DNA of 64,000 nucleotides. Source: Rhizobium sp. GTDB taxonomy: Bacteria > Pseudomonadota > Gammaproteobacteria > Xanthomonadales > Xanthomonadaceae. Location: NCBI GenBank assembly GCA_019459185.1, contig JAIBEO010000200.1, forward strand, positions 1 to 64,000, read 5' to 3'. A program made the position numbers and the translations under genes. The notes beneath the pieces are model-generated. The model was not told the origin of the DNA and ran no database searches. It saw only the letters and a program-made list of their open reading frames with translations. Positions within the stretch are counted from its first letter, which is position 1; each line of letters begins with the position of its first letter. Shown one piece after another: positions 40,158 to 50,330 of the stretch.

Positions 40158-42527
40158 TCATGACCGCAACCGCGCGCCGCAGTCCCTGGCCAGCGCCTCG
40201 AGGGCGGTGGCGACGGCCTGGTCGGCGTCGCGGTCAGTTAGGGTGCGTGAAACGTCCTGCAGAATCAAGCCCATAGCCAGACTCTTTGAGCCGCTCTCTA
40301 GGCCCGGCCCGACGTAGCGGTCGAACAGCACAACCTCGCGCAGCAGGCCGCCCAGGGCCGCCTGCAGGCTGGTTTCCAGGGCCGTCCAGGGGGTGGTTTC
40401 CGGGACGACGAGCGCGATATCGCGGCGGACGGACGGGAAACGGGACAATTCGCCGGCCCGGGGCACGTCGCGGGCGGCCAGCGGTGCCAGGTCGAGTTCG
40501 AAACCCACCACCTCGCCGTCCAGGTCCAGCGCCTTGGCCAGGCGCGGATGCAGGTGGCCGACCCAGCCGATGCGCTGGCCGTCGCGCCAGACCGAGGCGC
40601 TGCGGCCGGGGTGGCCCCAGGGGCTGTCGTCCGGGCGGAATTCGGCGCGGGCACCGGCCAGGGCCAGCAGGGCCTCGACCTCGGCCTTGAGGTCGTAGAA
40701 GTCCACGTCGCGGTCGTCCAGCGCCCACTGCTCGGCCGACTGCGGGCCGCAGGCCACCGCGGCGATGCGCGGGGTTTCGCGCGGCGCGCCTTCGGCCAGG
40801 TGGAACACCTTGCCCAGCTCGAACAGGCGCACGCGCGGCTGCTGGCGCGCGCGGTTGCGGCCCAGCGCCGACACCAGGCCCGGCAGCAGCGCGGTGCGCA
40901 TCACGCCAAGTTCGGCGGTGAGCGGATTGGCCAGGGCCACGGCGCTGTCGGACAGCTGCCAGGCCTCGAGCGTGGCGGCATCGAGGAAGGCGTAGTTGAT
41001 GGCTTCGAGGAAATCGCGGCCGGTCAGCTGGCGGCGCAGCACGGCATCGGCCACGCGGGTTTCGCTGGGCGCCACCAGGCGAACCTCGCCGGTGGGCGTG
41101 GTGGTCGGGATGGTTTCGTAGCCGTGGATGCGGGCGATTTCCTCGACCAGGTCCTCTTCGATGGCGATGTCGAAGCGGCGGCTGGGCGGCAACACCGACC
41201 AACCGTCGGCATTGGCGGTGACCTGCATGCCCAGCGCGCGCAGGATGCGTTCGACCCCGGCGTCGGCCACGGCCAGGCCCAGCACGCGCTTGAGGCGGGC
41301 GCGGCGCAGGACCACGGCCTTCGGCTGCGGCAGGAATTCCGGCTGCACGGCCTCGGTGATGGCACCGGCCTGGCCGCCCATGATTTCCAGCACCAGCGCG
41401 GTGGCGCGCTCGAGCGCCAGGCGCGGCAGCTGCGGGTCGACGCCGCGCTCGAAGCGGTGCGAGGCGTCGGTGTGCAGTCCCAGCCGGCGGGAGCGGCCGA
41501 TGATGGCGTCGGGCGCGAAGTGCGCGCTTTCCAGGAACACGCGGGTGGTGGCGTCGGTGACGCGGGTGTCGAAGCCGCCCATCACGCCGGCCAGCGCCAC
41601 CGGGCGGTCGCCGTCGGTGATGGCCAGGAAACCGTCGTCCAGTGCGACCTCGCGCTCGTCGAGCAGCTTGAGGGTTTCGCCGGCGCGGGCGCGGCGCACG
41701 CCGACCGGGCCGGCCAGCGTGGCGGCGTCGAAGGCGTGCATCGGCTGGCCCAGCTCGAGCATCACGTAGTTGGTGATGTCCACCAGCGGGCTGATCGGGC
41801 GCAGGCCGGCGCGCTTGAGGCGCTCGGTCATCCACAGCGGCGAGGCCGCCTTGGCATCCACGCCTTCGATGACGCGGCCGCAGTAACGCGGGCAGTCGGC
41901 GCCGGCGCCCAGCGCCACCTCGAACAAGGCCTGGCTGGTGATGGCAGCTTCGGGGATGGGCATCGGACTGACCTGGGCGCCCATCGCGGCGGCCACGTCG
42001 AAGGCGATGCCGCGCACGCTGAAGCAGTCGGCGCGATTGGGCGTGAGCTTGAGTTCGAAGCTGGCGTCGGGCAGGCCCAGGAACGCGGCGATCGGCTCGC
42101 CGACCGGCGCGTTCGCCGGCAGCTCGAGCAGGCCGGAGGCATCGGCGTCGATGCCCAGCTCCTTCGCGGAACACAGCATGCCCTGCGAATCCACGCCGCG
42201 CAGCTTTGCGGCGCCGATGGCGATGCCGCCCGGCAGCTTCGCGCCGACGGTGGCCAGCGGCGCTTTCAGGCCCGGGCGGGCGTTCGGCGCGCCGCAGACG
42301 ATCTGCACGGTGCCGGCGCCGGTGGCGACCTGGCAGACCTGCAGGCGGTCGGCCTCGGGGTGCCGTTCGCAGGAAAGGATCTCGGCCACGAGCACGCCGT
42401 CCAGGCCCTCGCCCAGCACCTGCAGCTCCTCGACCTCGAGGCCGATGGCGGTGAGGCGCGCGGACAGCTCCTCGCGCGGCGCGGCCGTGGCGACGTGCTC
42501 CCTGAGCCAGCTTTCCGGGAATTTCAT
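40158..42527 (-). CDS. pheT: Phenylalanyl-tRNA synthetase beta subunit
   Basis: 789 residues. N-terminal tRNA-binding EMAP-like domain ([19 protein letters not shown]), B3/B4 editing region, B5 domains, the class II-like core and a C-terminal FDX-ACB anticodon-binding domain ([16 protein letters not shown]). With PheS it forms the alpha2-beta2 enzyme. Separated from pheS by a 114-bp spacer containing a full REP element, unusual inside a two-subunit operon. Confidence 0.97.
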
Positions 42528-42560
42528 GTCTGTCTCTCTTCTGTATTCTGTCTTTTGCCC

Positions 42561-42634
42561 CCTGTAGGAGCGACTTCAGTCGCAACACTTTCTTCGCCTT
42601 CGGCGAAGGTCGCGACTGAAGTCGCTCCTACAGG
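42561..42634. repeat. Full REP/BIME-like element between pheS and pheT
   Basis: A perfect 23-bp inverted repeat, beginning cctgtaggagcgacttcag and ending with its complement, surrounds a 28-nt centre that itself contains ttcgcc/ggcgaa. This is the REP type common in Xanthomonadales and Pseudomonas. In mRNA it would form a long hairpin between the two subunit genes. Confidence 0.85.
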
Positions 42635-42641
42635 AGGGGCT

Positions 42642-44100
<1,459 letters not shown>

Positions 44101-44112
44101 TTCTTATTCTCC

Positions 44113-44316
44113 TCAGAGGTACGGCAGCATGCGGTCCAGACGGCCCGCGTCCTCGGCACGAACGTGGTTCGTCTGCCGGAGGTTGCGCTTCCGCTTGGTC
44201 GCCTTCTTGGTGAGGATGTGGCTACGGTTCGCGTGGCCAGCCTTGTACTTGCCGGAAGCGGTCTTCCGGAAGCGCTTGGCCGCCGCCCGATTGGTCTTGA
44301 TCTTGATCTTGGCCAT
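44113..44316 (-). CDS. rpmI: 50S ribosomal protein L35
   Basis: 67 residues, with [16 protein letters not shown] and a Lys/Arg-rich body ([12 protein letters not shown]) typical of L35. First gene after the infC-rpmI leader region. Confidence 0.97.
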
Positions 44317-44400
44317 GGGAGTCCCTTTGGGATTTATTGGTTACTGGCCTGGGCGGTGGCGGGTGCCACGCTTTCCTTCCTGCCCGTGCCGGCTTGTAAG

Positions 44401-44426
44401 CCATTGATTCCCAAGGGAACCAATGG
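44401..44426 (-). promoter_or_regulatory. Hairpin in the rpmI-rplT leader
   Basis: The 230-nt infC-rpmI spacer contains a strong stem (ccattg, bulge, ttccc / gggaa, bulge, caatgg). It is a candidate part of the leader RNA bound by L20 for autogenous control, inferred from position. Downstream elements were not resolved. Confidence 0.4.
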
Positions 44427-44530
44427 CAGGTCCATGACGACTTCGCCCGATGTTCCGGGCCCGGATGCCGCACCGGGAGCCCGCCGGAAAGCCGGCGAGC
44501 CGCGAATTATGCAACAAAACCAAGGCGTTG

Positions 44531-44538
44531 TGTAGGAG
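44531..44538. repeat. Possible REP fragment near infC stop
   Basis: tgtaggag, the start of a REP arm, lies 9 nt outside the infC stop. Too short to be certain. Confidence 0.3.
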
Positions 44539-44546
44539 ACGCCCGG

Positions 44547-45074
44547 TTATTTCTTCTTGGGCGCGACCATCATGATCATCTGGCGTCCCTCGAGGCGCGG
44601 GCGCTGCTCGATGACCACGTCCTCGCCCAGGTCGGCCTCGATGCGCTTGGCCATCTCGAGACCCAGCTCCTGGTGGGCCATCTCGCGGCCCTTGAAGCGG
44701 ATGTTGACCTTGACCTTGTCGCCCTCCTCCAGGAACCGGCGGAGGTTGCGCAGCTTGATGTTGTAGTCGCCGTCGTCGGTGGTCGGGCGGAACTTGAGTT
44801 CCTTGATCTCGACGATCTTCTGCTTCTTCTTGGCGGCGTTCGCCTTCTTCTGCAGGTCGAACTTGTACTTGCCGTAATCCATGATGCGGCAGACCGGCGG
44901 ATCCGCGGTGGGCTGGATCTCGACCAGGTCGACGCCGGACTCTTCGGCCAGCGCAAGCGCTTCGTCGCGGGACAGGACGCCGACCATCTCGCCGTCCAGG
45001 CCGATCACGCGTACGCGCGGGACCCGGATTTCAAGGTTCTTGCGGTTGCCCTTGTCTGAAGATGAAGTATTGAT
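44547..45074 (-). CDS. infC: Translation initiation factor IF-3
   Basis: 175 residues. [21 protein letters not shown] and the C-terminal [19 protein letters not shown] match IF-3. No ATG or GTG gives a family-length protein; the frame instead has ATC (45074-45072) preceded by AAGGA 8 nt upstream, directly before the conserved start region [22 protein letters not shown] starts at infC are known to allow IF-3 to repress its own translation, so AUC is the likely start. It follows thrS on the same strand. Confidence 0.9.
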
Positions 45075-45111
45075 TCGCGTGTTCCTTGTTTGTGACTGAA
45101 ACCGGCCGCCC

Positions 45112-47019
45112 TCAGGCGACCGGGCCGTTCTCTTCGCGCAGCCTGGCCAGGAAGTCGTCGACCGACAGGGTCCCCAGGTCCTCGCCCGACCGCGTGCGCA
45201 CCGCAATCATCCCATTTTCCTTCTCGCGGTCGCCAACGACCAGCAGGTAGGGGACTTTTTGCAGGGTGTGCTCGCGGATCTTATAGCCGATCTTCTCGTT
45301 CCGCAAATCGGACTGGACCCGGAAGCCTTGATTCACAAGGGTTTTCCGGACCGATTCGGCCCAGTCGGCCTGGGCGTCGGTGATGTTCATGACCACCGCC
45401 TGGACCGGGGCCAGCCAGGCCGGGAAGGCGCCGGCATGGTTCTCGACCAGGATGCCGATGAAGCGCTCCATGGAGCCGACGATGGCGCGGTGCAGCATGA
45501 CCGGGTGCCGCTTGGTCGAGCTTTCGTCCACGTACTCGGCGCCCAGGCGCCCCGGCATCATGAAGTCGACCTGCATGGTGCCCAGCTGCCAGGTGCGGCC
45601 GATGGCGTCCTTGAGGTGGTATTCGATCTTCGGGCCGTAGAAGGCGCCCTCGCCCGGCAGCTCCTCCCAGGCCACGCCGCAGGCCGACAGGGCCGCGCGC
45701 AGGGCGTTTTCGGCCTTGTCCCAGGTGGCGTCGTCGCCCAGGCGGTTGTCCGGGCGCAGGGCGATCTTGATCTGCACGTCGCTGAAGCCGAAGTCGGCGT
45801 ACACGCGCAGGGCCTGGCGGTGGAACGCGGTGACCTCGGACTCGATCTGGTCCTCGGTGCAGAACACGTGGCCGTCGTCCTGGGTGAAGCCGCGCACGCG
45901 CAGGATGCCGTGCAGCGCGCCCGAGGGCTCGTTGCGGTGGCAGGCGCCGAATTCGCCGTAGCGGATCGGCAGGTCGCGGTAGCTGTGCAGGCCCTGGTTG
46001 AACACCTGCACGTGGCCCGGGCAGTTCATCGGCTTGAGCGCGTAGGTGCGCTTCTCCGACTCGGTGAAGAACATGTTTTCCTTGTAGTTGTCCCAGTGGC
46101 CGGACTTCTTCCACAGGGACACGTCGAGGATCTGCGGGCAGCGCACTTCCTGGTAGCCGGAGGCGCGGTAGACGCGGCGCATGTACTGCTCCACCACCTG
46201 CCACAGCTGCCAGCCCTTCGGGTGCCAGAACACCAGGCCCGGCGCTTCTTCCTGGATGTGGAACAGGTCGAGCTGGCGGGCGATCTTGCGGTGGTCGCGC
46301 TTCTCGGCTTCCTCGAGCTGGACCAGGTAGGCCTTGAGGTCCTTGTCGTTGAGCCAGGCGGTGCCGTAGATGCGGCTGAGCATCTGGTTGTTGTGGTCGC
46401 CGCGCCAATAGGCGCCGGCCACCTTCATCAGCTTGAACGCGCGCAGCTTGTCGGTGCCCGGCACGTGCGGGCCGCGGCACAGGTCGGTGAACTCGCCCTG
46501 GGTGTACAGCGACAGGTCTTCGTTGGCCGGGATCGATTCGATGATCTCGGCCTTGTAGTGCTCGCCCAGGCCCTTGAAGAAGGCCACCGCCTCGTCGCGG
46601 CTCTTGACGCTGCGGGTGACCGGCAGCGCTTCCTTGACGATCTTGAGCATCTCGGCCTCGATGGCCGGCAGGTCTTCCGGCGTGAACGGGCGCTCGTAGG
46701 CGAAGTCGTAGTAGAAGCCGTTGTCGATGACCGGGCCGATGGTGACCTGCGCGCCGGGATACAGGCGCTGCACGGCCTGCGCCAGCAGGTGGGCGGTGGA
46801 GTGGCGCAGCACGTCCAGCGCATCCGGGTGCTTGTCGGTGACGATCTCGAGCGAGGCGTCGTTTTCGATGCGGAAGCTGGCGTCCACCAGCTTGCCGTCC
46901 ACCTTGCCGCCGAGCGCGGCCTTGGCCAGGCCGGCGCCGATGGAGGCGGCGACTTCAGCCACGGTGACGGGGTGTTCGAACGGGCGGCGGCTGCCGTCGG
47001 GGAGCGTGATGTTGATCAT
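45112..47019 (-). CDS. thrS: Threonyl-tRNA synthetase
   Basis: 635 residues from [16 protein letters not shown], the TGS domain; the ORF ATG ten codons upstream lies in the leader. An editing domain with [16 protein letters not shown], class II motif 2 ([15 protein letters not shown]) and RGFTQDDGH, motif 3 and the anticodon-binding C-terminus follow. Preceded by a threonine-codon leader peptide and an attenuator, so its transcription should rise when charged tRNA-Thr is scarce. Confidence 0.98.
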
Positions 47020-47050: not shown

Positions 47051-47071
47051 AAAAAAGGGCGCCAGGCGCCC
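47051..47071 (-). terminator. thrS leader terminator (attenuator)
   Basis: On the minus strand, gggcgc-ctg-gcgccc is followed by TTTTTTC, a Rho-independent terminator about 32 nt before the thrS ATG and 28 nt after the leader-peptide stop. Confidence 0.75.
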
Positions 47072-47091
47072 TCGCGGATGCGAAGCCTGGC
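47061..47091 (-). promoter_or_regulatory. thrS leader antiterminator
   Basis: On the minus strand, gccaggc (47091-47085) can pair with gcctggc (47067-47061), which is part of the terminator stem. The two structures are mutually exclusive, the logic of ribosome-mediated attenuation. Confidence 0.6.
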
Positions 47092-47098
47092 AGATCGT

Positions 47099-47122
47099 CT
47101 ACCGGGTGGTGGTAGTGCTCAT
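47099..47122 (-). CDS. Threonine leader peptide of thrS (MSTTTTR)
   Basis: A seven-residue ORF, Met-Ser-Thr-Thr-Thr-Thr-Arg, with four consecutive threonine codons, ending in TAG upstream of the antiterminator. A GAG triplet 8 nt before the ATG may act as the Shine-Dalgarno. It lies in the transcribed leader of thrS, 52 nt after the predicted start site. Four tandem Thr codons in so short an ORF directly before a Thr-tRNA synthetase attenuator are unlikely to be chance. Confidence 0.65.
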
Positions 47123-47180
47123 GTCGCACGCTCGGCGCCGGTTTCCCGGGGCCACCTTGTCTCAGCCCTTGACGGCTCCA

Positions 47181-47209
47181 AAGGTAGGCGGAGGGGGCCT
47201 GAAAGTCAA
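47181..47209 (-). promoter_or_regulatory. Candidate thrS promoter
   Basis: On the minus strand, TTGACT and TACCTT are 17 bp apart. Transcription would begin near 47174 and include the leader peptide and attenuator. Confidence 0.6.
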
Positions 47210-47260: not shown

Positions 47261-48196
47261 ATGGCCCAGAGCATCCACGACTTCCACGACGACCCCCGCA
47301 ACGCCGCCATCCTGGTCTGGATCAACGGTCGGCTGGTGCCCCGGGCCGAGGCCACGGTCTCGGTGTTCGACAGCGGCTTCGTGCTGGGCGATGGCGTCTG
47401 GGAGGGGCTGCGGGTGGTGGACGGGCAGCCGGTGTTCCTGGACGCCCACCTGGACCGGCTGTTCGAGGGTGCCAAGGCCATCGCGCTCGATATCGGCATG
47501 GACCGCCGCGGCTTGGAGCGGGCCATCCGCGAAACCCTGGTCGCCAACGACATGCACGACGGCGTGCACCTGCGCCTGATGGTGACCCGCGGCGTGAAGC
47601 GCACGCCCTACCAGGACCCGCGCGTCACGATCGGCCCCGCCACGGTGGTGATCATCCCCGAGCACAAGAACCCCAAGCCCGAGACGCTCTCCACCGGCCT
47701 GAAGCTGTTCACCGTGCACGTGCGCCGCGGCTTTCCGGACGTGCAGGACCCCAAGCTCAACAGCCACAGCAAGCTCAACTGCATCACCGCCTGCATCCAG
47801 GCCACCGCGGCCGGTGCCGACGAGGCGCTGATGCTCGACCCGCATGGCTTCGTGGCCACCTGCAATTCCACCCACTTCTTCATCGTGCGCAAGGGCGAGG
47901 TCTGGACCTCCTCCGGCGACTACTGCCTGGGCGGCATCACCCGCGCCAACGTGCTGCGGGTGTGCCGGGAGGCCGGCATCCCGGCGCGCGAGAAGAACTT
48001 CAGCCTCACCGAGGTCTATTCCGCCGAGGAAGCCTTCTGCACCGGCACCTTCGCCGGCGTGGTGCCGGTGCGCGAAATCGACGGCCGCACCATCGGCGAC
48101 GGCAGGCCCGGGCCGATGGTGGCGCGGCTGCAGGCGCTGTACCGCGAGCTGGTGCAGCGCGACGTGCTGGTGCGCGCCGGGGAGAAGCTGGCGTGA
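47261..48196 (+). CDS. Class IV aminotransferase (branched-chain/D-amino acid type)
   Basis: 311 residues of the fold-type IV PLP family. The N-terminal FDSGFVLGDGVWEGLRV, the catalytic Lys in LNSHSKLNCITA and TCNSTHFFIV match IlvE/D-amino acid aminotransferase relatives. Substrate cannot be fixed by eye. It is translationally linked to a sulfotransferase-like gene (4-bp overlap), divergent from thrS. Confidence 0.85.
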   Translation: MAQSIHDFHDDPRNAAILVWINGRLVPRAEATVSVFDSGFVLGDGVWEGLRVVDGQPVFLDAHLDRLFEGAKAIALDIGMDRRGLERAIRETLVANDMHDGVHLRLMVTRGVKRTPYQDPRVTIGPATVVIIPEHKNPKPETLSTGLKLFTVHVRRGFPDVQDPKLNSHSKLNCITACIQATAAGADEALMLDPHGFVATCNSTHFFIVRKGEVWTSSGDYCLGGITRANVLRVCREAGIPAREKNFSLTEVYSAEEAFCTGTFAGVVPVREIDGRTIGDGRPGPMVARLQALYRELVQRDVLVRAGEKLA

Positions 48197-49184: not shown

Positions 49185-50330
49185 ATGGACTTGGGAACCG
49201 TTCGAGACCGGGAAAAACTGAAGCCGCGCCGCGAGCCGTACTGGCACAAGCTCGCATCTCGGCAATTCCTGGGCTTCCGCCCTTCGACCATCGGAAAGGG
49301 TGGCTCCTGGATCGCCCGCTACTACGATTCCGAGACGGGCAAGAAGCCGATCCGCTCACTTGGGGACTTTGGGCACCTGCCTCCTAACGAGCGCTTTTCA
49401 GCTGCTTCCAAAGAAGCCCGCGAATGGTTCGCCCACCTATCGGGGGGCGGCGCCGCCGAACCAATCACGGTCAAGGAGGCTTGCGAGCGCTACGCCCAGG
49501 ATCGACCGGACGCCACTCGCCGGTTCGCGCGCTACGTTTACGGCGACCCCATCTCCAAGGTCATGCTTCACAAGCTGACCGATAAGCAGGTTCGGGAGTG
49601 GCGCAAACGCCTGGAGGCCATGCCGGCCCTTGTGAGCCGCCGCAAGGCCGGAAAGGCCAATACGCGGCCTAGGTCGGCCGCCACAGTCAATCGCGACATG
49701 GTGTGTCTCCGGGCGGCCCTGAACTTTGCTTTGGACCAAGGAGAAGTCCTAACTGCCGTCGCGTGGCGCAAAGCTTTGCAGCCTAGTGAGGCGAAAGGGC
49801 GTCGGAACCTCTATTTGGACCGTGACCAACTGCGAGCACTCTTGGATCAACTGCCGCAAGACGCCAAGACATTCGCGCACGCCCTTTGCCTGCTGCCACT
49901 CCGACCGGGAGCACTTGCCCAACTCCGCGTAAAGGACTACGACCCGAAGACCTCGACAATCACGATAGAGCGAGACAAGGCGGGAAACGGGCGAAAGATC
50001 CTTTTGCCCACAGACACGGCGGCAATGCTGAAGGGCCAATGTCGGGACAAGCTACCGGGAGCGCCGATCTTTGCGAGAGCAGACGGCCAGCCTTGGGACA
50101 AGGACGCATGGAAAGGCCCAATAAAAGCGGCCGTAGTCGCAGCAGAACTGCCGCGAGAAGCAACCGCATACACCATCCGCCACTCAACGATTACCGACCT
50201 CGTATCGGGCGGCCTGGACCTGTTGACCGTGGCCCAAGTCTCCGGAACTTCCGTGGCGATGATTGAACGTCACTATGGGCACTTGCAGCGTGATAAGGCT
50301 GCTGCGGCACTTGCAGGGCTCGCGCTATGA
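49185..50330 (+). CDS. Tyrosine recombinase/integrase of island 3
   Basis: 381 residues. Catalytic-domain residues: Arg in LPLRPGALAQL, the second Arg in YTIRHSTITDL (with Tyr in place of the usual first His), and the nucleophile Tyr in IERHYGHL. The N-terminal SGGGAAEPITVKEACERYAQ region binds core DNA. It belongs to another branch than the island 1 and 2 enzymes. Transcribed inward from the remnant end, and coupled to the next gene by ATGA. Confidence 0.92.
   Translation: MDLGTVRDREKLKPRREPYWHKLASRQFLGFRPSTIGKGGSWIARYYDSETGKKPIRSLGDFGHLPPNERFSAASKEAREWFAHLSGGGAAEPITVKEACERYAQDRPDATRRFARYVYGDPISKVMLHKLTDKQVREWRKRLEAMPALVSRRKAGKANTRPRSAATVNRDMVCLRAALNFALDQGEVLTAVAWRKALQPSEAKGRRNLYLDRDQLRALLDQLPQDAKTFAHALCLLPLRPGALAQLRVKDYDPKTSTITIERDKAGNGRKILLPTDTAAMLKGQCRDKLPGAPIFARADGQPWDKDAWKGPIKAAVVAAELPREATAYTIRHSTITDLVSGGLDLLTVAQVSGTSVAMIERHYGHLQRDKAAAALAGLAL

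Follow-up and report, generated by a model that had tools for sequence, protein, structure and literature searches.

The window, by which we mean the whole stretch of 64,000 nucleotides of DNA that was analysed, carries thrS, the gene for threonyl-tRNA synthetase (ThrRS), on its minus strand, preceded by a short open reading frame (ORF) and a terminator (Table 1). The identity of thrS is supported by ThrRS alignments that were full-length in relatives. The short ORF, MSTTTTR, was present at 47122-47099 just as a preliminary description of this DNA had claimed, and its four tandem Thr codons, read directly on the minus strand, occupy 47116-47105. The order of the genes from thrS to pheT is that of E. 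coli, but the gap between rplT and pheS is only about 45 bases (43697-43741), which leaves no space for a leader of the kind that E. coli has in pheM. We infer that thrS is co-transcribed with infC, rplT, pheS and pheT, and the leader in front of thrS might control the whole cluster through pheT. In many Gammaproteobacteria (L005, L030, L061, L208 and others), though not in the window, a tRNA gene in the same orientation adjoins thrS upstream. Elsewhere in the window, a tyrosine-recombinase-like integrase ORF (49185-50330) and, after it, replication ORFs of phage or plasmid character (51307-52641) suggest an integrated element.

Table 1. Features of the thrS locus in the window, in the order in which they are met on the minus strand.
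Feature	Positions	Strand	Sequence or remarks	Basis
Putative promoter	47181..47209	-	TTGACT (47209-47204), 17-nt spacer, TACCTT (47186-47181)	read directly
AGGT(G), proposed Shine-Dalgarno half of a split ribosome-binding site	47154..47157	-		complementary to 16S rRNA 3' end
Hairpin H0	47134..47153	-	GGCCCCGG-GAAA-CCGGCGCC, central C.C mismatch; between AGGT and leader AUG	covariation
Leader ORF MSTTTTR	47099..47122	-	ATG AGC ACT ACC ACC ACC CGG TAG	
Hairpin 1:2, over leader stop codon	47089..47103	-	GGTAGA-CGA-TCTGCC	predicted fold of window RNA
Antiterminator 5' strand (strand 2)	47085..47091	-	GCCAGGC; 7 nt past leader stop codon	complementarity
Intrinsic terminator stem-loop (strands 3 and 4)	47055..47073	-	GAGGGCGCC-TGG-CGCCCTT	terminator scan
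Terminator T tract	47051..47056	-	six T; overlaps stem end	read directly
thrS, threonyl-tRNA synthetase, the regulated gene	45112..47019	-	ATG at 47019	ORF
Genes 3' of thrS, same orientation	40158..45206	-		ORF translations
infC ORF	44547-45206	-		
rplT	43741-44100	-		
pheS	42642-43697	-		
pheT	40158-42527	-		

Three Thr in a row were found in 12 of the 1295 short-ORF entries of the 64-kb window (5-30 codons, nested starts counted separately), two of which were the thrS leader. To compare relatives, the regions upstream of thrS were gathered from Lysobacteraceae genomes, giving 123 that were non-identical, and leaders were anchored on a conserved GTGYGAC alone, so that neither an ORF nor Thr was required. 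This context was present in 112 of the 123 regions and was followed directly by ATG in 111. The presence of the leader in 111 of 123 relatives rules out chance. All 111 anchored leaders ran into an in-frame stop within 10 codons; in 76 of them, the largest group, it came after 8 codons. Thr stood at both codons 3 and 4 in 104. Leaders of the family are 5-9 codons long with 1-4 Thr codons, mostly two or three, and the fact that most relatives have just two or three counts against an attenuator. Codon 3 was ACT in 110 of 111 leaders. Among the Thr codons of 45 thrS genes from the set, ACT has a share of only 1.7%, so the invariant ACT of the leader is a strong and unexplained choice; neither a reason nor a pairing partner was found for this codon (47116-47114 in the window). 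The first Thr codon is also usually ACT in many betaproteobacterial leaders.

The pattern GTGYGACATGNNNACTAC was found in 341 of 397 family genomes, compared to two for the reversed control pattern, and in its own genome it occurs as a single copy, at the thrS leader. At 11 of 126 family loci no leader could be recognised by the criteria used, which also counts against an attenuator. A subgroup (L007, L015, L140, L141, L149 and L151) has another leader region (GTAGTTCGAACGAACACGATCACCATGACGCGC.., with MTRTGLLN or MTRNGIHR) together with a terminator; it is a diverged or rebuilt leader.

All the sequence claims of the preliminary description held, the sigma-70-like promoter being the weakest of them. 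The sequence is there, but it is weak: the putative -10 element TACCTT matches the consensus at 3 of 6 positions and a consensus scan misses the promoter. In relatives a -10-like peak recurs 27-28 nt before a conserved AGG, and the distance in the window is 29 nt; a sigma-70-like promoter for the thrS leader is plausible from these sequences.

The conserved AGG belongs to a motif of the AGGT/GGGT/AGGA type (AGGTGG at 47157-47152 of the window, minus strand) that was present at all 111 anchored loci, directly 5' of hairpin H0 and mostly 35-37 nt from the AUG. H0 itself is supported by covariation. Each of the seven pairs in its 8-nt arms had changed on both sides somewhere in the family, and 93.7% of cells were paired, compared to at most 40.5% in slid controls. 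The covariation score was 0.479 versus 0.193 in shuffles (0 of 500), and an independent permutation test also backed the covariation. The commonest loops are GAAA and GCAA, and the spacer between H0 and the leader ORF in the window is GAGCGTGCGAC. In four relatives (L098, L129, L150 and L011) H0 is missing, and a few nucleotides separate AGGTG from the AUG that follows it. By analogy with a phage system we infer that AGGUG is the Shine-Dalgarno sequence of the leader and that H0 draws it near the leader AUG. In phage T4 genes 38 and 25, an RNA hairpin between the Shine-Dalgarno sequence and the AUG likewise shortens an over-long spacing, from 22 to 5 nt and from 27 to 11 nt, respectively (PMC3014915). 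The thrS leader differs in that the change, from about 31 nt to 11 nt, is proposed from covariation and hairpin-less variants, and in that the product is a leader peptide. To our knowledge, split ribosome-binding sites with a hairpin have been known only from T4 mRNAs.

Between the leader and thrS, the Rho-independent terminator with six T residues was confirmed (47073-47055 plus 47056-47051). Its whole stem-loop reads GAGGGCGCCTGGCGCCCTT, and 47073-47051 is the sole terminator-like site in 500 bases, where 0.3 were expected. The proposed antiterminator also held: GCCAGGC at 47091-47085 is a perfect 7-nt complement of GCCTGGC at 47067-47061. A terminator was detected 3' of 99 of the 111 family leaders; none was detected for the other 12, which counts against the attenuator. 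The strand just past the leader stop codon pairs with the terminator loop and 5' arm, and the two sides covary (CGAGG/CCTCG, CCCAAG/CTTGGG and CACAAGG/CCTTGTG in relatives, compared to GCCAGGC/GCCTGGC in the window). The mean energy of this duplex was -14.50 kcal/mol in the family versus -12.89 kcal/mol when strands were permuted between species (best permutation -13.25); the shuffled control gave -11.59 kcal/mol. The alignment that the preliminary description had put forward as a check held both Thr codons and covarying hairpins. Lack of conservation of ORF or terminator, which it had named as counter-evidence, was looked for in relatives, and the outcome spoke strongly for attenuation. A 1:2 pause hairpin is typical of such attenuators, though some members do without it; the one in the window had no covariation support in the family, with -6.27 observed versus -6.73 for permuted pairs. 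Conserved 1:2 pairing of the leader codons or of the H0 region with strand 2 was likewise no better than in permuted pairs and was rejected as a feature of the family.

The hairpin and T tract could instead be a constitutive partial terminator or the end of an upstream transcript, with the Thr ORF conserved for a purpose other than sensing, such as re-initiation. Many relatives have tRNA genes a short way upstream of thrS, so termination of read-through is possible there, but the window has a divergent neighbour at 47261 and no minus-strand gene close upstream for a terminator to serve. A plain terminator would not need strand 2 to covary with the terminator loop or to keep its distance from the leader stop codon. 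A non-sensing ORF is at odds with the match between amino acid and gene: Thr codons stand before thrS in Lysobacteraceae, Burkholderiales and Neisseriales alike, with different leader sequences in the different lineages. We consider this explanation very unlikely.

Folding models in which the ribosome was represented by a masked footprint (11, 13 or 15 bases masked downstream) gave a switch in the expected direction. For a ribosome with its A site on codon 3, codon 4 or the stop codon, the median probability of the terminator in the family was 0.17, 0.08 or 0.93, respectively, and the value at the stop codon exceeded that at codon 3 in 87 of 99 loci. The direction was unchanged whether 11, 13 or 15 bases were masked. 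For the window, a ribosome with a 14-nt downstream footprint on each of the four Thr codons left the antiterminator as the minimum-energy fold, while a ribosome on the stop codon left the terminator. With a 13-nt footprint, however, the probability of the terminator was 0.80 on codon 3 versus 0.002 on codon 4; codon 3 of the window is permissive for the terminator in this model, which counts against attenuation. In computation, then, ribosome position chooses between the terminator and antiterminator folds.

These features would fit together as follows. Transcription would start upstream of AGGTGG and yield a short leader mRNA, on which a ribosome would translate MSTTTTR by way of AGGU(G), drawn near the AUG by H0. 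When Thr-tRNA is sufficient, the ribosome would reach the stop codon and cover strand 2, so that strands 3 and 4 could pair, the terminator would form and polymerase would halt before thrS. With too little Thr-tRNA, the ribosome would wait on the Thr codons and leave strand 2 free to pair with the terminator loop and 5' arm, and polymerase would read into thrS. Conservation, covariation and the fold models support the ribosome-mediated attenuation of thrS suggested in the preliminary description, and we consider it highly probable that a ribosome-mediated transcription attenuator acts at this locus, sensing charged tRNA-Thr to control thrS and probably also the genes that follow.

E. coli thrS is the textbook example of translational autoregulation of a gene by its own protein. 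There, ThrRS binds a translational operator upstream of thrS (PMC3858243). In E. coli K-12 we saw a hairpin, GTGATCT-TTCGTGT-GGGTCAC-CACTG, at the known operator position, 42 nt before thrS (PMC3858243). If ThrRS repressed its own synthesis through a tRNA-like leader operator in the window as well, the ORF and terminator would be incidental. An operator of this type is an anticodon-arm-like hairpin with a CGU-type loop 35-45 nt before thrS; it is real in E. coli, and similar hairpins occur in many other Gammaproteobacteria. In a class sample of 87 other Gammaproteobacteria, taken as a rule as one genome per family, a hairpin with an anticodon-like loop was found near thrS at 45 loci (3.8 expected in shuffles) and CACTG followed it at 35; operator-type loci include Larsenimonas, Halomonas, a Solemya symbiont and one unassigned MAG. 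A strict regular expression, used first, missed even plain operators and was replaced by this hairpin search. Since the hairpin search scores terminators too, only matches with the CACTG flank were counted as firm. None of the leader-bearing Lysobacteraceae loci had an operator-like hairpin with a CACTG flank; the search gave 14 operator-like matches among them, mostly terminators. H0 is conserved within the proposed ribosome-binding site, as the E. coli operator is within its own, but the H0 loop is GNRA-like and not anticodon-like, and H0 lies at the AUG of the leader, not of thrS. Control by an E. coli-type operator is, in our view, very improbable at this locus. Both systems act negatively on thrS in bacteria of one class; they differ in that the E. 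coli operator involves protein bound at the thrS ribosome-binding site, with no leader peptide or terminator, and in that its hairpin is absent here (PMC3858243).

Neither a leader nor an operator was found at 11 family loci and at many class loci. Judged from sequence, leader and ThrRS operator appear to be alternatives at thrS. It is a serious but tentative possibility that the operator was replaced by an attenuator in Lysobacteraceae and some betaproteobacterial lineages, with a split ribosome-binding site in Lysobacteraceae. Such a replacement would have shifted sensing from free synthetase to charged tRNA-Thr. In four loci of the Rhodocyclaceae type (L048, L049, L055 and L058), a different, strong and conserved hairpin, GGGCGCACCGCGTGA..CCGCGTGAACCGTGCGCCC, with two CGTGA repeats lies directly before thrS and is perhaps another type of ThrRS operator.

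T-boxes control synthetase genes in Gram-positive bacteria, so control of thrS by a T-box or another described tRNA-sensing RNA element might be considered. The thrS leader is too short for a T-box, and no Rfam family matched the leader in the window (E up to 1) or in the 13 relatives scanned. We regard this as the least likely of the explanations, barely worth entertaining.

Similar but differently built Thr leaders stand before thrS in Burkholderiales and Neisseriales. Leaders of the types MTPRTTT.. and MTPRTLTETTSERR occur in Burkholderia, Cupriavidus, Massilia, Acidovorax, Comamonas and relatives, and ARTTT.. in Bordetella and Achromobacter. Another betaproteobacterial type is MFKRTTTTR.., which like MTPRTTT.. 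is accompanied by a terminator, and the leaders of Vogesella and Aquitalea are MFKRTTTTRTSR and MKHWRTTTTRHSHAS, respectively. With up to 2 mismatches allowed, the Burkholderiales leader pattern GGTTATGACACCGCGAAC occurred in 54 of 250 genomes of this order, a figure that includes chance matches and is therefore not used as a prevalence. The antiterminator duplex of the betaproteobacterial leaders beat 40 of 40 permutations. Equilibrium folding gave no switch in most of these leaders, the long terminator winning wherever the ribosome stands, so the switch there would have to be kinetic. A nascent-RNA measure, in which the transcript is cut at the terminator loop, showed that an upstream strand holds the 5' arm of the terminator more with the ribosome at the second Thr codon than at the stop codon in 31 of 33 cases (medians 0.70 and 0.37, respectively). 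For B. cenocepacia, 82 short 5'UTR transcripts are reported (PMC5688073).

Leader-peptide attenuation itself is already known. The enterobacterial leaders thrL, trpL, hisL, pheL, leuL and ilvL share with the thrS leader a short ORF rich in cognate codons, a terminator before the gene and an antiterminator that competes for the 5' arm of the terminator. The thrS leader differs from them in that it controls a synthetase gene and not biosynthesis, lacks a conserved 1:2 hairpin, is 5-9 codons long and has a hairpin that parts the Shine-Dalgarno-like motif from the AUG. Another parallel is pheM of E. coli, a leader peptide before a synthetase gene in the same cluster (thrS-infC-rpmI-rplT-pheM-pheS), but pheM senses phenylalanine and lies before pheS, whereas the leader in the window is a threonine leader at the head of the cluster.

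Other synthetase genes have been assigned leader peptides, and the remark in the preliminary description that these are known mainly for biosynthetic operons and pheST was too narrow: proposals exist for cysS, for hisS and for synthetase genes of Streptomyces. In Rhodobacterales, uORFC-8-2 before cysS is likewise a predicted ribosome-mediated attenuator with tandem cognate codons and covarying stems; it differs in its amino acid, cysteine, in belonging to alphaproteobacteria and in having its Cys codons at positions 14-15 (PMC8632094). Leader peptides have been proposed for hisS paralogues in bacilli (PMC2965389) and, in Streptomyces lividans, for alaS, leuS, trpS and thrS (PMC8079986). The S. 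lividans thrL, MKRVRPFLETTPGFVPAR, resembles the leader described here as a proposed Thr leader peptide before thrS. It differs, as far as that part of the source goes, in that it belongs to an actinobacterium, is leaderless, has two Thr codons in 18 and is followed by one hairpin without a U tract and by no clear terminator, with no comparative support seen there (PMC8079986). In the open PMC literature we found no earlier description of such a Thr leader for thrS in Proteobacteria; the main comparative study of attenuators in that group, Vitreschak et al. 2004, lies outside it, and priority is uncertain.

Of greater interest among these results are the way in which leader and ThrRS operator alternate and the possibility that the leader has a split ribosome-binding site. 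Through H0, the part that hairpins play in such a site could be tested in a cellular mRNA. If use of a tRNA-charging attenuator is shown for the Xanthomonas family and for parts of the betaproteobacteria, thrS would be a clear case of a gene at which one mode of control has given way to another. The attenuator also allows a prediction of how these bacteria, which include many plant pathogens and soil species, would react to a lack of threonine and to borrelidin or other inhibitors of ThrRS.
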